Assembly: GCA_018725485.1 (NCBI GenBank)
Contig: QLUP01000057.1
Location: forward strand, 1 to 6,412
Length of the DNA: 6,412 nucleotides
Source: Candidatus Lithacetigena glycinireducens
Lineage (GTDB): Bacteria > Coprothermobacterota > HKB111
Direction of reading: 5' to 3'
Positions 1-6,031 of this stretch are shown piece after piece; positions within the stretch are counted from its first letter, which is position 1, and each line of letters starts with the position of its first letter. Under the pieces are notes generated by a model. The model saw only the letters and a program-made list of their open reading frames with translations. It did no database searches and was not told the origin of the DNA. The position numbers and the translations under genes were made by a program.

Positions 1-318
1 GTCAAGAGCCCAGCCAGCTAACGTACTGCAGTTAGCTAAGTCGAATGTCCCAAATGGCGGGCTGTTCGGCGGCGGAGGGGGTGGACCACATTCACCTGGC
101 CAGTGCTCGAACCCTGATTCGCAAGAGGCGGGGATAATGGCGCCGCCAGATGCGCCGCGAGGAGAGTAAGAGACGAATCCGACTTCTGAAGAAGTGGCAA
201 CATTGCCACTTGCAGAAGTGAAATACTGGAAAACTCCTACTACACCAAGGAAGATAACGAGCGACGTTAGGGTCACGAAATACGCTTTAGTTCGTTGGCG
301 AACTTTTATATGCGTCAT
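1..318 (-). CDS. Secreted/anchored surface protein, N-terminal 106 residues (runs off left edge)
   Basis: The frame is open from ATG at 318 down to base 1, so the protein is incomplete at its C-terminus. Residues 1-12 are basic (MTHIKVRQRTKA) and residues 13-33 form a hydrophobic segment, giving a signal peptide or N-terminal anchor. A Ser/Thr/Gly-rich stretch follows, then a proline-rich linker (PPPPPNSPP, about residues 80-88), then the start of a domain reading GTFDLANCSTLAGWALD. That pattern, GxxDxxxCxxxxGWAxD, is one I recall from repeated extracellular domains in Patescibacteria surface proteins; this is from memory and not verified. The expected role is at the cell surface, and the ligand is unknown. 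The start is supported by a promoter whose -10 box ends 7 nt before the ATG. A 38-base imperfect palindrome lies inside the coding region just after the membrane segment. Confidence 0.7.
   Translation of the reverse strand, partial: MTHIKVRQRTKAYFVTLTSLVIFLGVVGVFQYFTSASGNVATSSEVGFVSYSPRGASGGAIIPASCESGFEHWPGECGPPPPPPNSPPFGTFDLANCSTLAGWALD
182..219. repeat. 38-bp imperfect palindrome inside the surface-protein gene
   Basis: The outer arms ACTTCTG (182-188) and CAGAAGT (213-219) pair perfectly. The inner arms AAGTGGCA (192-199) and TGCCACTT (204-211) also pair perfectly, around the four bases ACAT. Three unpaired bases on the left (189-191) face one on the right (212). That gives 15 bp of stem in 38 bases. 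It lies within codons for a Ser/Thr/Ala/Gly-rich stretch and is not followed by a T-run on either strand, so it is not a standard terminator. Confidence 0.6.
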
Positions 319-325
319 ATATTGA

Positions 326-355
326 ATACTAGCACCACAATTTATCGTGTGTCAG
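326..355 (-). promoter_or_regulatory. Promoter of the surface-protein gene (leaderless)
   Basis: On the minus strand, CTGACA (355-350, 5/6 match to the -35 consensus) is followed after 18 bp by an extended -10, TGC-TAGTAT (334-326). The -10 ends 7 nt before the ATG at 318, so the predicted transcript starts at or next to the A of the start codon. No Shine-Dalgarno is present. The promoter overlaps the end of the decayed TPR remnant. Confidence 0.55.
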
Positions 356-428
356 AGATATCCCCATTTTCTATCAATGCAAGATTTTCAGTAATAGACT
401 CCTTCATTTTAGAGAATCCTTCGCTATA
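342..428 (-). pseudogene. Decayed C-terminal fragment of a TPR-protein paralogue
   Basis: Read on the minus strand from the TAT codon at 428 to TAA at 344-342, this encodes YSEGFSKMKESITENL followed by 12 more residues. The C-terminus of the intact TPR protein (1005-1826) reads YREGLTKMKESIEENL and also ends about 12 residues later. Thirteen of the first 18 residues are identical and the two end at nearly the same place. An in-frame TAG lies only four codons upstream (440-438), so no larger gene survives. The fragment overlaps the end of the BrnA-like antitoxin gene in a different frame: the internal ATG (407-405) overlaps the antitoxin stop TGA (406-404). It could in principle be translated as a 21-residue peptide from that ATG, but a remnant is the simpler reading. 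Confidence 0.65.
395..412. repeat. 18-bp direct repeat, left copy
   Basis: TAGACTCCTTCATTTTAG occurs identically at 395-412 and 1061-1078. Similarity continues to about 428 (29 of 34 bases match by eye). The two copies bracket the BrnT/BrnA-like pair. The similarity is explained by homologous TPR C-terminal coding sequence on the minus strand. Confidence 0.8.
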
Positions 429-691
429 GCAGTTAGCCTATGTAAGGAAGAGGAAATCAACGTTTGATACGGCATCCCTTCTTGTGCCGCCTTTGCTTTC
501 AGTTTTATAAGGTCAACAGCTGAGATTCTTATTGATATTGTTTTATTTTTTGCAAGCGTGCTTTTCGCTACCTCAGAGTGGCGGTAAATCTCTTGTCTAA
601 GTTTCGAAACAGATTTGAAATCCCCAGCTTCTATGCCGGCGAGTATTCTTTTTTCTTCTGCATTTAATGTTGGTCTCTTTATTTTTTTCAT
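404..691 (-). CDS. BrnA-like ribbon-helix-helix antitoxin
   Basis: This 95-residue protein has a charged N-terminal part followed by a typical ribbon-helix-helix block. TISIRI (51-56) is the DNA-contacting strand, about 58-70 is helix A and about 74-88 helix B, ending PYQTLISSSLHR. That arrangement matches the CopG/BrnA-type antitoxins of type II systems, which neutralise the toxin and repress their own promoter. It starts 4 nt after the toxin stop codon with no Shine-Dalgarno, so it is probably translationally coupled. Toxin-first order is usual for brnT-brnA. As I recall the family, these proteins end shortly after the LHR motif. Here a tail (AIAKDSLK) follows that is encoded by TPR-homologous DNA read out of frame, suggesting the antitoxin's end was replaced when the module arrived. 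Confidence 0.75.
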   Translation of the reverse strand: MKKIKRPTLNAEEKRILAGIEAGDFKSVSKLRQEIYRHSEVAKSTLAKNKTISIRISAVDLIKLKAKAAQEGMPYQTLISSSLHRLTAIAKDSLK

Positions 692-695
692 AATG

Positions 696-962
696 TTATG
701 ACTTTAAGTATTTTTTGTTTGCCTTTCTGCTTGGAATAATAGTTTTGAGAAAAATCTTCTCACTGTCTTCAACAAACGGAACGTAGTAAACATATCCTTC
801 TATTTCGAGCACATACACAAACTGATGTTGGTATGGTGTTTTATTGCTGATAATATCCAAGATCTTCCCTTGTTCTATATGCACCAAACATATTTCAAAA
901 GAAATCCCTCTTTCTTTAATCAACTTTTTGTTCTTTTCAGGATTCCAGTCAAAATATTTCAT
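696..962 (-). CDS. BrnT-like ribonuclease toxin
   Basis: This 88-residue protein opens with YFDWNPEKNKKLIKERGISF, the N-terminal pattern of BrnT-type toxins (aromatic-x-W-x-x-x-K near the start, then a (K/R)xxG(I/V)SF turn). It closes with TIIPSRKANKKYL (74-86), matching the conserved basic strand-helix (IIxxRKAxxxxxxxY) near the end of that family. BrnT proteins adopt a RelE-like fold and cleave RNA; activity here is inferred. Length agrees with the family (about 90 residues). The gene is first in a two-gene operon with the BrnA-like antitoxin 4 nt downstream. Its -35 overlaps the stop codon of the upstream TPR gene. No Shine-Dalgarno precedes the ATG. The middle of the protein (HIEQGKILDI) resembles the variant of BrnT common in uncultured bacteria; this is from memory. 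Confidence 0.72.
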   Translation of the reverse strand: MKYFDWNPEKNKKLIKERGISFEICLVHIEQGKILDIISNKTPYQHQFVYVLEIEGYVYYVPFVEDSEKIFLKTIIPSRKANKKYLKS

Positions 963-970
963 ACCAGTCG

Positions 971-992
971 TGTATATACAATGTATATAAAA
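971..992. promoter_or_regulatory. Candidate RHH operator: tandem 11-bp repeats over the -10
   Basis: TGTATATACAA (971-981) is followed immediately by TGTATATAAAA (982-992), 9/11 identical. The first contains the perfect 10-bp palindrome TGTATATACA. Repeats one helical turn apart covering the -10 are what an autoregulating ribbon-helix-helix antitoxin would bind. The region is A/T-rich, so chance resemblance is possible. Confidence 0.4.
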
Positions 993-1008
993 TTATATTT
1001 ATCGTCAA
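980..1008 (-). promoter_or_regulatory. Promoter of the brnT/brnA-like operon
   Basis: On the minus strand TTGACG (1008-1003, 5/6 consensus) is followed after 17 bp by TACATT (985-980, 4/6), in a very A/T-rich spacer. The predicted start lies about 10 nt before the toxin ATG, giving a very short leader. The -35 overlaps the TGA of the TPR gene (1007-1005), so the module has its own promoter despite being only 42 nt downstream. Confidence 0.45.
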
Positions 1009-1826
1009 GTGCCAGATTTTATTGCCCCATCATCGCCAAGAAGCTTGAGATTCTCCTCTATAGACTCCTTCATTTTAGTAAGCCCTTCTCTATAGATGCT
1101 TGGGTCGTTCCCTGGATACGCCCTACCCCAATCTTTTGGAGACATTGTCGCAACAATTTCTAGCGCCTTTATAAACGCTTCTTTAGCTCCTTTTTTATCC
1201 CCAGTGTTTAGAAGAGAAACGCCAAGAGCGTTAAGTAGCCAAGGGTTATCTGGGGCTACCTTAAGCCCAGCTCGTGCAGCATCTCCCGTCTCGGTATATT
1301 TACCTTGTTGGAAGTAGATCCACGCCAGGTCGTTCTTCCCTGCCCAGCTATCTGGCTTCCATTTTAAGAACTCTTTGAAGTCGTCTGCGGCCTCCTCCAA
1401 GCGCCCGCTATAGCCGTAGATGAGTCCTCGCACATAGTATGAGCGTTTGAATTCTGGATACATTTCAATCTCTTTATTTATCTCCTGCATCGCCAAATAG
1501 AATCTGCCCTGAACGAAATAAATACGAGCGAGCTGATAGTGCGGTCCGTGAAGTGCTGGGTCAATTTTAAGCGCTTCAAGATAATATTTTTCGGCCTTTT
1601 CAATGTCGTACGCCCCTCCGCCGAAATAGTAGTTGCCAATCTCAAAACGCAGTACGGCGTCTTTTGGAGAAACGAGAGTCGCAAGAGGGGCGATTTTTGT
1701 GTAAGTCCACACAAACATTCCGATTGACGTTTTTCCGATTATTCCGATTATTCCGACCAAAACAAATAGTGCGATAACAAGTATAACCAGATAGCGAAGC
1801 AACGTTGAAGTTTTAATCTTTTGCAT
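1005..1826 (-). CDS. Membrane-anchored TPR-repeat protein
   Basis: From ATG at 1826 this gives 273 residues. Residues 11-32 are a strong hydrophobic segment (LLRYLVILVIALFVLVGIIG), probably an uncleaved N-terminal anchor with the rest outside the membrane. About five tetratricopeptide repeats follow (roughly 57-90, 93-126, 127-160, 161-194, 195-228), recognisable from pieces such as EKAEKYYLEALKIDP, EEAADDFKEFLKWKPD and LNALGVSLLNTGDKKGAKEA. TPR arrays are protein-binding scaffolds, so the partner cannot be named. A GTG at 1835 would add three residues, but the extended -10 (1842-1834) ends 7 nt before 1826 and covers the GTG, so 1826 is preferred. The final 29 residues are echoed by a decayed copy at 342-428. 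The start of the anchor is encoded by a 9-bp triplication (CGATTATTC) near 1732-1758. Confidence 0.8.
   Translation of the reverse strand: MQKIKTSTLLRYLVILVIALFVLVGIIGIIGKTSIGMFVWTYTKIAPLATLVSPKDAVLRFEIGNYYFGGGAYDIEKAEKYYLEALKIDPALHGPHYQLARIYFVQGRFYLAMQEINKEIEMYPEFKRSYYVRGLIYGYSGRLEEAADDFKEFLKWKPDSWAGKNDLAWIYFQQGKYTETGDAARAGLKVAPDNPWLLNALGVSLLNTGDKKGAKEAFIKALEIVATMSPKDWGRAYPGNDPSIYREGLTKMKESIEENLKLLGDDGAIKSGT
1061..1078. repeat. 18-bp direct repeat, right copy
   Basis: This is identical to 395-412. Here it lies in frame within the intact TPR gene and encodes the TKMKES region of its C-terminus. The distance between the copies is 666 bp, start to start, and contains the BrnT/BrnA-like pair. 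Confidence 0.8.
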
Positions 1827-1833
1827 GAACCAC

Positions 1834-1842
1834 ACTATAACA
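1834..1842 (-). promoter_or_regulatory. Extended -10 promoter of the TPR gene (leaderless)
   Basis: TGT-TATAGT (1842-1834 on the minus strand) is an extended -10 with a 5/6 hexamer. It ends 7 nt before the ATG at 1826, so transcription should begin at or beside the start codon. No good -35 is visible at 16-18 bp, which extended -10 promoters tolerate. Confidence 0.5.
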
Positions 1843-3504: not shown

Positions 3505-4164
3505 TTATTTATCACTAAGAGCCGTTTCTATAACTGCCTTAAGCGCCGCATAACTGGGCGACCTACCGAATACGAACTCCCTGCCGTTTGGCGATACAAC
3601 TATGAGATGTGGCGTTGAGTCCACATTAAGCCATATGCCAGATTCTACGTCGCGCAAAATGCGCGCGCGATGTCTGCCACTCGCAAGGCACTCTGCGAAC
3701 TTTTCTTCTTGAATCCCCATTTCTTCCGCAAGGCGTGGCAGTAGGGCTAGGTCAAAGTTGTTATTTGACGGTGTAGCTTCATACAGCTTATCCAAGTATT
3801 CAAAAAAACCAGGGTCGCCATTGGTTTCTGCAACACACTCTAGTGCTTGTGCTTGAATAAATGATTTTGGATGTATGGTGAGCGGGAAATGGCGATAGAC
3901 GAGTGCGACTTGGTCTTTATATTCATTCAATATGCGCAACAATATCGGATGTAGTTTTTTACAATACGGACACTCTACTCCCGAGTACTCAACAATTTTT
4001 ACCGGAGCTGAACGGCTACCAAGAAAGTGGTCTTGTTCTTCTAAAACAACAGTACCGACTGCGCCTTGAGTCGTTTTTGGCTCCTCTTTTTTGTTGAGAT
4101 AAATCAGCGCGCCACTTCCAATGAAAGTGATGATAACGCCGGCGAGTAGAAATTTTTTTAACAT
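3505..4164 (-). CDS. DsbA-like thiol:disulfide oxidoreductase, membrane-anchored
   Basis: This 219-residue protein has an N-terminal signal anchor (FLLAGVIITFIGSGALIYL, 5-23, no lipobox) and then a thioredoxin-fold domain of the DsbA/BdbD (Thioredoxin_4) type. The domain begins HFLGSRSAPVKIVEYSGVEC. The active site is CPYC (65-68). YRHFPL (90-95) is the conserved strand after the first helix. STPHLIVV (183-190) carries the cis-proline loop, where most relatives have TPTFF. Two more cysteines, C110 and C159, lie in the helical insert and may form a second disulfide. It would oxidise or reshuffle disulfides in exported proteins outside the membrane. The surface protein at the left edge has cysteines that could be substrates. 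The start is supported by a perfect extended -10 close upstream. It is co-transcribed with the CxxC membrane protein 2 nt downstream. Confidence 0.88.
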   Translation of the reverse strand: MLKKFLLAGVIITFIGSGALIYLNKKEEPKTTQGAVGTVVLEEQDHFLGSRSAPVKIVEYSGVECPYCKKLHPILLRILNEYKDQVALVYRHFPLTIHPKSFIQAQALECVAETNGDPGFFEYLDKLYEATPSNNNFDLALLPRLAEEMGIQEEKFAECLASGRHRARILRDVESGIWLNVDSTPHLIVVSPNGREFVFGRSPSYAALKAVIETALSDK

Positions 4165-4281: not shown

Positions 4282-4899
4282 ATGAAGACTATGTTGGCAA
4301 TATTGGCAATATTGGTCATGCTGGGAGCATTTGTTCCGACGGCCGTATTCGCGAAAGACATACGCGTGGAAAAGCCGACGATAGTAGTCGGGCAGAGCTG
4401 GACATACAGAAATACGTATGGACAACTTAGCACGCGGACCATCGAGTCAGTCGAGCAGGACGGCGGGTTCACGACAAGACTTGAAGGCTATGGCGGGACA
4501 ATCGGAAAAGAAGTCTTCACGTCGGGATTGAATATTCGCATAGATCACGGGCGAACATTCGAGCCGTACGGTGTGCGATACTCTTTCCCATTCGGCGGTG
4601 ATGCAAAGAAAGAATGGTCTGGCACCTACACCTTTCCGCACCTACGAACTGGCGAAACTGTTACTGTGAAGGCAACTGTGAAGCTCGGCGAGTGGGCGCA
4701 GGTCAAAGTTCCAGCAGGGACCTTTGATGCCATTGAGATAATCAGGCGCGGCGACTATAGGTTGCAGAGCGGCCACGCCAATTATTTCGTGGAGAGAACG
4801 TTCTGGGCACCGGCCGTCGGAAGTCACGTCAAACGAACGTTCATGGATTATGGTTCGCGCGTCGGCCCAAGGACGTTCGAGCTTGTTCGCTTCCGCTGA
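4282..4899 (+). CDS. Secreted protein of unknown function (205 aa)
   Basis: A clear Sec signal peptide leads: MKTM, a hydrophobic core LAILAILVMLGAFVPTAV, and VFA with cleavage expected after A24. The mature part looks all-beta. Its features are GQSWTYRNTYG near 37-47, EVPAGTF-like VKVPAGTFDAIEI (141-153) and FWAPAVGSHVK (174-184). The combination 'xxVPAGTFxAxxI ... xWYAPxVGxVK' occurs in several loosely related envelope proteins of proteobacteria (DUF3108-like), so a periplasmic or surface beta-sandwich is plausible; no activity can be named. It is the only plus-strand gene, is richer in G+C than its neighbours (30 and 35 of 60 bases in the lines at 4381 and 4441, against 20 of 60 at 5401) and alone has a strong Shine-Dalgarno, which suggests recent acquisition. 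It ends at a bidirectional terminator. Confidence 0.78.
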   Translation: MKTMLAILAILVMLGAFVPTAVFAKDIRVEKPTIVVGQSWTYRNTYGQLSTRTIESVEQDGGFTTRLEGYGGTIGKEVFTSGLNIRIDHGRTFEPYGVRYSFPFGGDAKKEWSGTYTFPHLRTGETVTVKATVKLGEWAQVKVPAGTFDAIEIIRRGDYRLQSGHANYFVERTFWAPAVGSHVKRTFMDYGSRVGPRTFELVRFR

Positions 4900-4915
4900 A
4901 ATCAGCAGTGTTCAG

Positions 4916-4944
4916 AAAAACCCGCCTTCATGAGGCGGGTTTTT
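4916..4944. terminator. Bidirectional intrinsic terminator
   Basis: CCCGCCT (4921-4927) pairs with AGGCGGG (4933-4939) around TCATG, flanked by A5 (4916-4920) and T5 (4940-4944), which also pair. The T-run follows the stem on both strands. It ends the plus-strand gene (stop 4897-4899) and the converging minus-strand gene, whose TAA overlaps its edge (4945-4943). Confidence 0.92.
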
Positions 4945-6031
4945 ATAGCTTCCAACCAAGTTCGACCAAAAAAGCTTTGAATTTTGGGTCAATCGCGCTT
5001 AAATTAACGCTGTCTCTACGTAGTTCTGTATTCGCCGCATTTTCATTGCGCTCATTTCGTAGCGAGATGTAAAAATTTGTTTGGGCAATATTTGGTTCGT
5101 TATAGATTCTGGATAGAAGCTTTTTTATGTCCACAACATTTGGGTTTGCTTTTCTGGACAAGTAATTCGCTTTATAAAACGAAACGACCATTTCACTGTT
5201 TAAACTAGGATTTTTCGCCAAGTAATCTAACGCGGTATCGAAAACTGTTTCCGGATTTCCAAAACTATCATCTCCAGAAATTGAAAGATCTGACAATACA
5301 ATGGCTCTGTTGAATAGCACCGGCACGATACTTTTACGATCGAATCGTATAATGCGTTCGTGATCTTGGTTAGCTACCGCTAGATTTTTCCTAATGATTT
5401 TTTTGTATTCTTCAATTATCTCCTGACTGTCACTGCTTGGTGTCGATTGTAAATGTAAAATTTTACTGGAATACCAGCGTGCAATCCGCAATTCCGATAT
5501 AGCTGTCGGCTGAAACGAGGACGCATATTCATACAAACGGCGATAACTTTTATTGACATCATTAGGATCATAGAAAGACTTATATACTCCGTCCTTGAAT
5601 ATTTCATCGGTGTATATTTGCTCGCGCCTCGCGTAGTAAAAATTGCCCATTGCCGATACGGCGTATGATCTCACAAAGTTATTGTATTCGGTATTTGCGG
5701 CTATCCGTTTCAGATGCTCAATTCCCTCGGGAATGGCGCCCCATTCTAGTTTGCTAAGCGCAACTTTGTAATCAACCTGACCCTTATCATCCCTGTCCGC
5801 ATATAATAACGCTTCTTGGTATTTTAATATCGCTTCCTCTAAATTCCCTTCCTGACGAAGTTGTTCGCCGGAAACGTATTGCGGATTGGTTTCTAAAAGT
5901 CGCTGGTTACTTGGTGTCTGAAGATTATCAGATGGTTTACCCGCGAAAAAATTGGTACTGAAAGCTCCATAAATAAGCAGGGAGGCGACGGCGCAAAAAA
6001 TAATTCCTAAGATTACAATTTGTTTATTCAT
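4943..6031 (-). CDS. Membrane-anchored helical-repeat (TPR-like) protein, 362 aa
   Basis: Residues 4-24 (QIVILGIIFCAVASLLIYGAF) form an N-terminal anchor or signal segment. A polar linker (to about 48) precedes an alpha-helical region. The best TPR-like unit is SGEQLRQEGNLEEAILKYQE (54-73), followed by VDYKVALSKLEWGAIPEGIE (86-105) and RSYAVSAMGNFYYARREQIY (121-140). Beyond about residue 150 the helices are less regular. The last residues (IDPKFKAFLVELGWKL) form a conserved-looking end. It is not obviously related to the other TPR protein in the window. It is probably exposed outside the membrane as a binding scaffold, with an unknown partner. There is no Shine-Dalgarno, and unlike other minus-strand genes no extended -10 lies just before the ATG, so it may be read from further upstream with the small frame that ends 28 nt before it. 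Confidence 0.75.
   Translation of the reverse strand: MNKQIVILGIIFCAVASLLIYGAFSTNFFAGKPSDNLQTPSNQRLLETNPQYVSGEQLRQEGNLEEAILKYQEALLYADRDDKGQVDYKVALSKLEWGAIPEGIEHLKRIAANTEYNNFVRSYAVSAMGNFYYARREQIYTDEIFKDGVYKSFYDPNDVNKSYRRLYEYASSFQPTAISELRIARWYSSKILHLQSTPSSDSQEIIEEYKKIIRKNLAVANQDHERIIRFDRKSIVPVLFNRAIVLSDLSISGDDSFGNPETVFDTALDYLAKNPSLNSEMVVSFYKANYLSRKANPNVVDIKKLLSRIYNEPNIAQTNFYISLRNERNENAANTELRRDSVNLSAIDPKFKAFLVELGWKL

Follow-up and report, generated by a model that had tools for sequence, protein, structure and literature searches.

A BrnTA toxin-antitoxin cassette was found between two copies of the 3' end of a TPR gene, in a region where relatives carry a single copy of that end and no cassette. 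Counting TPR, such bracketing occurs at six different genes, and in five of the six the paired gene ends differ from each other in the manner of coding sequences. We consider it probable that the cassette was imported together with a diverged homologous TPR end, by one-sided or single-crossover recombination. The pattern suggests that BrnTA pairs spread by recombining at ordinary gene ends, without an integrase or transposase of their own.

Anatomy of the TPR-BrnTA locus

The window, meaning the whole stretch of DNA analyzed, is one complete 6412-base contig, and coordinates refer to it. Its open reading frames give the following order on the minus strand: the TPR gene, a BrnT-like gene, a BrnA/CopG-like gene, a TPR 3'-end remnant, and a secreted-protein gene. 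The features are listed here by ascending coordinate, with the evidence for each in parentheses.

1..318, minus strand: secreted-protein gene, truncated by the contig end; its start lies 23 nt past the remnant stop (ORF; directly behind TPR in relatives)
342..429, minus strand: remnant of a TPR 3' end, 28 codons from YSEGFSK and a TAA stop of its own, presumably the native gene end left behind (alignment, HMM)
394..412, minus strand: 19-nt block identical to 1060-1078 (direct-repeat search, alignment)
404..691, minus strand: BrnA/CopG-like antitoxin gene, 95 aa (PF12441 and PF14384, both below cut-off; C-terminus compared with L063)
428..431, minus strand: putative illegitimate junction between BrnA and the TPR remnant, with about 2 nt (CT) of microhomology (comparison with L063)
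696..962, minus strand: BrnT-like toxin gene, 88 aa (PF04365 match; 80% identical relative in genome G395)
963..1008, minus strand: candidate cassette promoter/operator, TTGACG on the TPR stop codon and then the palindrome TATATACATTGTATATA (comparison with homologous loci)
1005..1095, minus strand: 3' end of the intact TPR gene, counterpart of the remnant, probably donor-derived or chimeric (repeat search and alignment)
1005..1835, minus strand: intact TPR gene, 276 aa, the insertion target (ORF; Pfam TPR models; single-copy orthologues in 36/397 genomes)

The remnant translates as CYSEGFSKMKESITENLALIENGDISDTR up to a TAA stop at 342-344, and the intact TPR gene product ends in YREGLTKMKESIEENLKLLGDDGAIKSGT before its stop. 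The initial annotation of this DNA had described a BrnT/BrnA-like pair lying between an intact TPR gene and a same-orientation remnant of its 3' end, and the open reading frames, the direct repeat, the alignment and the HMM all bear this out. It had also reported an identical 18-mer in both copies; the shared block is present but is one nucleotide longer, at 19 nt (394-412 and 1060-1078).

Two further modules were observed beyond the TPR gene. On the plus strand at 1848-2080 is a decayed DinJ/YafQ-type toxin-antitoxin remnant in which antitoxin residues 45 to 80 (86% identical to L003) are joined to the last 44 residues of the toxin (75%), the middle being deleted; the TPR gene thus has toxin-antitoxin loci on both flanks. 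On the minus strand at 2097-2944 is a gene for an AbiEii-like nucleotidyltransferase toxin (PF08843, E=7.9e-16). A small ORF upstream of it has no family match, and the two make a third toxin-antitoxin-like module within 2.6 kb.

Similarity of the two TPR ends

The strongest direct repeat in the window pairs 382-429 with 1048-1095, at 79% identity over 48 nt. The nucleotide alignment of the remnant with the intact end scored 47, and none of 2000 dinucleotide shuffles scored above 32. An HMM was made from the TPR tails of relatives, with the window left out, and it gave 15.5 bits to the remnant, 15.4 to the intact tail, and 3.6 to the best of 1000 shuffles. Chance similarity of the two ends is ruled out by the nucleotide shuffles and the HMM scores. 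The initial annotation had called for an alignment that looked outside the identical block, and here too the result was better than in shuffles: with KMKESI masked, the remnant scored 3.3 bits against a shuffle maximum of 2.1 with the same HMM, just above the shuffles, so that the similarity beyond the repeat is real, though weak taken alone.

The BrnTA pair and its junction with the remnant

The toxin matched PF04365 with E=2.8e-8 and 34.4 bits, the Pfam cut-off being 34.5, and six of seven toxin homologues match the same family. It had no match among NCBIfam profiles, and among PDB profiles only a weak one, to 7vd7, described as 'toxin' (E=0.03). The protein is thus likely a borderline BrnT, its family membership being predicted from these profile scores. 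The antitoxin ORF begins 4 nt past the BrnT stop and was matched by profiles of the ribbon-helix-helix type, PF12441 (E=2e-5) and PF14384 (E=0.02), neither of which reached its cut-off. An antitoxin of this type directly downstream of the toxin is the BrnT/BrnA arrangement, and the pair presumably acts as a type II toxin-antitoxin system, in which the toxin would be an RNase that the antitoxin neutralizes. It resembles the known BrnT/BrnA type II systems (PF04365/PF14384) in its toxin-first order, its compact operon, and its weak but consistent Pfam matches. It differs from them in that its scores fall just below the curated cut-offs, its antitoxin is nearer the CopG_antitoxin model, and the last residues of the antitoxin are replaced by target-gene sequence.

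That replacement locates the joint. The final seven residues of BrnA (IAKDSLK) and its stop codon are TPR remnant read in a different frame, whereas the L063 antitoxin ends in LHRLTAEV followed by its stop. Because of this difference, the window junction appears to fall inside the terminal codons of BrnA, at about 2 nt of microhomology, so that BrnA terminates in seven remnant-encoded residues. At the other end of the cassette, TTGACA and a GTATACATTGTATA-type palindrome are found close upstream of BrnT at most homologous loci, and at the bracketed loci this candidate promoter/operator stands immediately behind the end of the target gene. The corresponding -35-like element of the window, TTGACG, shares bases with the TPR stop codon. 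The promoter scan was weak, with 3 found against 2.7 expected.

The TPR locus in relatives

The one other genome in the class of the source genome lacks the TPR gene (genus to class searched), and relatives were therefore drawn from the order of genome G002. There, TPR orthologues were found in 36 of 397 genomes, with one match each. Orthologues also occur in genomes titled Parcubacteria and Kaiserbacteria, and no TPR relative was found in viral contigs. The gene is thus absent from the other genome of the source class and has its orthologues in the order of G002; either misbinning or horizontal acquisition may explain the presence of this contig.

The region downstream of TPR was inspected in 31 distinct relatives. 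The secreted-protein gene stands directly behind TPR, within about 170 bp, in 30 of the 31, the exception being L014. None of the 31 has a second TPR tail or a toxin-antitoxin pair behind TPR, and the window alone differs. The search for empty sites that the initial annotation had recommended thus returned one TPR copy in each relative. A single copy at empty sites, as is seen with insertions that make long target duplications, holds both for the 31 TPR relatives and for the relatives of endonuclease III, a second target described below. The remnant in the window lies 23 nt before the secreted-protein gene, a position at which the native TPR end would be expected, and from this we infer that the remnant is the old end and that the cassette-side end is the donor-derived newcomer.

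Gene-end duplications at other BrnTA loci

BrnT relatives are present in 19 of 397 genomes in the order of G002. We compared 21 BrnTA loci, namely, the window and 20 from one Parcubacteria-type order, taken with about 5 kb per side where the contig allowed. Two copies of the 3' end of a neighboring gene bracket 6 of the 21 loci. The copies are 50 to 126 bp long, and five pairs are approximately 70 to 88% identical and one is 100% identical. All of the loci are from drafts, for the most part metagenome bins, and the estimate is based on these six loci. The targets are as follows, the names other than TPR having been assigned by reading the sequences.

TPR: the window
M3 peptidase: L061, 115 bp, 82%
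Sugar transferase: L067, 94 bp, 100%
NAD-dependent epimerase: L069, 85 bp, 87%
Endonuclease III: L073, 126 bp, 88%
Ribosomal protein L5 (rplE): L075, 50 bp, 86%

The translated flanks match one another in those six loci and in none of 60 mismatched flank pairs. At the DNA level the background was low, with 7 bracketing repeats versus 4 others of the same spacing in the same 184 kb, and 4 in 152 kb of TPR loci. In L061 and L075 the cassette opposes the target gene and the remnant is on the other side, so the orientation of the cassette relative to its target is free. YafQ modules of the same genomes were bracketed in 2 of 30 cases, by short matches only. One of the two, the YafQ module of L112 (genome G248), has a 113-bp, 75% identical repeat at 997-1109 and 1754-1856, within a run of further repeats.

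The gene-end duplication is lacking at 15 of the 21 BrnTA loci, and other routes, or erosion, must therefore exist. The repeats at L064 (36 bp) and L068 (32 bp) resemble a terminator and a dispersed repeat and were left out of the gene-end count; that at L077 (27 bp) is weak. The endonuclease III site is mostly empty in relatives and is once occupied without a gene-end duplication (L083, genome G268). The nearest orthologues of the endonuclease III gene of genome G312 are only 66 to 70% identical, and at that distance they do not show which of the two copies is native. The BrnTA pairs of L067 and L069, from different genomes, are both upstream of a gene read as secD, and their other flanking genes differ. 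Of three plasmid BrnTA loci, two have no bracketing repeat. In L141, from a Calothrix plasmid, a BrnTA-like pair lies between direct repeats of about 320 bp (2527-2843 and 3594-3911) that are 74.7% identical and consist of stretches without annotated genes.

Divergence between the copies and alternative origins

An insertion that duplicated its target, the outer copy decaying afterwards, should leave differences at all codon positions. The copies were compared over gap-free stretches picked by the analyst and pooled over the five divergent pairs, and the differences at codon positions 1, 2, and 3 numbered 17, 7, and 47. Thirty-eight codon changes were synonymous and 16 were non-synonymous. The synonymous fraction is thus 0.70; simulations of a neutral remnant gave a mean of 0.30, with 0 of 2000 reaching the observed value, and simulated orthologue-like divergence between two constrained genes gave 0.66. 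A stop appeared in a remnant in 88% of the neutral-decay simulations, and there is none in the real stretches compared. Mostly synonymous differences indicate that the divergence arose while both copies were functional genes, before the joining event. Taken singly, the window pair, with 5 synonymous and 6 non-synonymous codons, does not discriminate. A transposition-like insertion, in which about 50 to 130 bp of the gene end is doubled and the outer copy decays neutrally, would account equally well for L067, where the copies are identical over 94 bp, and its expected duplications, 'long and variable (order of 100 bp)' in restriction-modification genes (PMC3874152), match the lengths found here. 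Given the synonymous bias at the five divergent pairs, which no simulation of neutral decay reproduces, and their intact reading frames, we regard it as an unlikely origin.

Two diverged coding ends in the same orientation would also result if the whole target had been duplicated in tandem and most of the second copy had later given way to the toxin-antitoxin pair, one of the histories put forward in the initial annotation; genome G244 indeed has two endonuclease III genes 4.6 kb apart. This proposal is already largely refuted, and we give it little credence: TPR is single copy in 36 of 36 matching genomes, no second tail is seen in the 31 relatives, and six unrelated genes would each have been duplicated independently and then reduced to their last 50 to 126 bp. 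The initial annotation had further entertained a site-specific cassette with att-like ends and a replacement gene 3' end, mobilized in trans by an integrase elsewhere. Elements of this class typically insert at a gene 3' end and restore the reading frame, and the window copies do share their 19-bp identical block. However, the six loci show neither a shared core nor a fixed orientation; the duplicated sequence is a different one at each locus and anywhere from 50 to 126 bp long, and L061 and L075 are reversed. The similarity in the window also extends to both sides of the block, whereas under a simple att model none would be expected on the upstream side of the proposed core. A Pfam search of the window ORFs found no recombinase. 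This too we consider very improbable. Least probable of all is an assembly artefact in which alleles of the gene end from mixed strains were joined around the cassette. The loci do come from metagenome assemblies, and the copies resemble alleles of related strains, but the overlap of about 2 nt at the window junction is too short for a k-mer assembler without spanning reads, and the same kind of pair is bracketed in six unrelated genomes, compared with only 2 of 30 YafQ modules.

Probable import of the cassette along with a homologous gene end

What stands from the initial annotation is its other history, capture at the TPR 3' end of a cassette that brought along a version of that end, which agrees with the coding-type divergence and with a remnant at the native position before the secreted-protein gene. 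As we picture it, the cassette would be a compact unit of about 600 bp, with its own promoter/operator, toxin, and antitoxin and no recombinase. It would have entered the TPR-secreted protein operon on a fragment that also bore a diverged TPR gene or TPR 3' end, the donor being perhaps a related cell in which the pair was already present downstream of TPR. The first joint would have formed by homologous recombination inside the TPR gene. The second would be illegitimate, arising either directly, as homology-facilitated illegitimate recombination, or through circularization of the fragment by end joining and a subsequent single crossover. The product would be a complete TPR gene with a donor-derived end, then the cassette, then the former native 3' end of TPR as a remnant ahead of the secreted-protein gene. 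The window has the two corresponding joints, a homologous one on the TPR side and one with about 2 nt shared on the BrnA side.

The same process may lie behind the sister BrnTA cassettes at at least five other gene ends in the order. Patescibacteria are reported to retain competence and homologous recombination genes (PMC12455944), and uptake of the DNA was presumably by transformation. We offer more tentatively, and at somewhat less than even confidence, the broader proposal that BrnTA cassettes in the Parcubacteria-type order are recombinase-free mobile units that ride the 3' ends of ordinary genes. They would be taken up from related cells and recombine homologously at the gene end, restoring the gene and leaving the old end as a scar that dates and traces the transfer.

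Relation to known systems

Among known patterns, the nearest is the 'insertion with long target duplication' seen in restriction-modification genes, which are described, in what PMC3874152 and PMC1643837 relate of Nobusato 2000 and Furuta 2010, as inserting with long and variable target duplications on the order of 100 bp. The restriction-modification genes of Helicobacter pylori (Nobusato et al. 2000, as presented in PMC1643837 and PMC3874152) are likewise a selfish two-gene module of the addiction type, with no recombinase of their own, direct repeats of the target of about 100 bp, and an empty site with one copy. The repeats here are similarly about 100 bp, variable, and locus specific (50 to 126 bp, six genes). 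The present cases differ in that the cargo is a toxin-antitoxin cassette, the genomes are of the Parcubacteria type, and the sites are mostly gene 3' ends. Copies identical at the start, as in the known pattern, hold for L067 only; five of the six pairs are diverged with a coding bias, which points to an imported homologous end rather than to duplication of the target itself.

Events of the kind we propose have been recorded in Escherichia coli, in which fragments with trimmed homology produced partial duplication of the homologous locus by a single crossover in 56 of 60 clones, with duplications of 109 to 950 bp in 14 sequenced clones (PMC3240628). Those events also combine one homologous and one illegitimate joint and place a partial locus duplication beside foreign DNA, but they were obtained in the laboratory with antibiotic markers, whereas ours are reconstructed from natural loci. 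In the displacement of type VI secretion system (T6SS) effector-immunity modules in Vibrio cholerae (PMC5361080), the incoming module recombines at conserved upstream sequence and the 3' end of the old gene stays downstream, as it appears to do here. There the effector gene is itself the anchor, whereas here unrelated housekeeping genes serve as anchors and the toxin-antitoxin pair is cargo.

A partial literature search found no report of such gene-end bracketing for toxin-antitoxin pairs. How small toxin-antitoxin pairs on chromosomes travel without transposases has long been asked, and each remnant would be a readable scar that preserves both alleles, native and donor, along with the junction. 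Import at gene ends would extend the restriction-modification pattern to toxin-antitoxin pairs, and it would indicate that in ultra-small bacteria the pairs are carried by recombination between related cells. That the target gene is kept whole would also explain how cassettes come to lie within essential operons. In L075 (genome G263), the BrnTA pair at 4382-5200 lies in the ribosomal spc operon behind rplE, and the remnant of the rplE end is on its other side.
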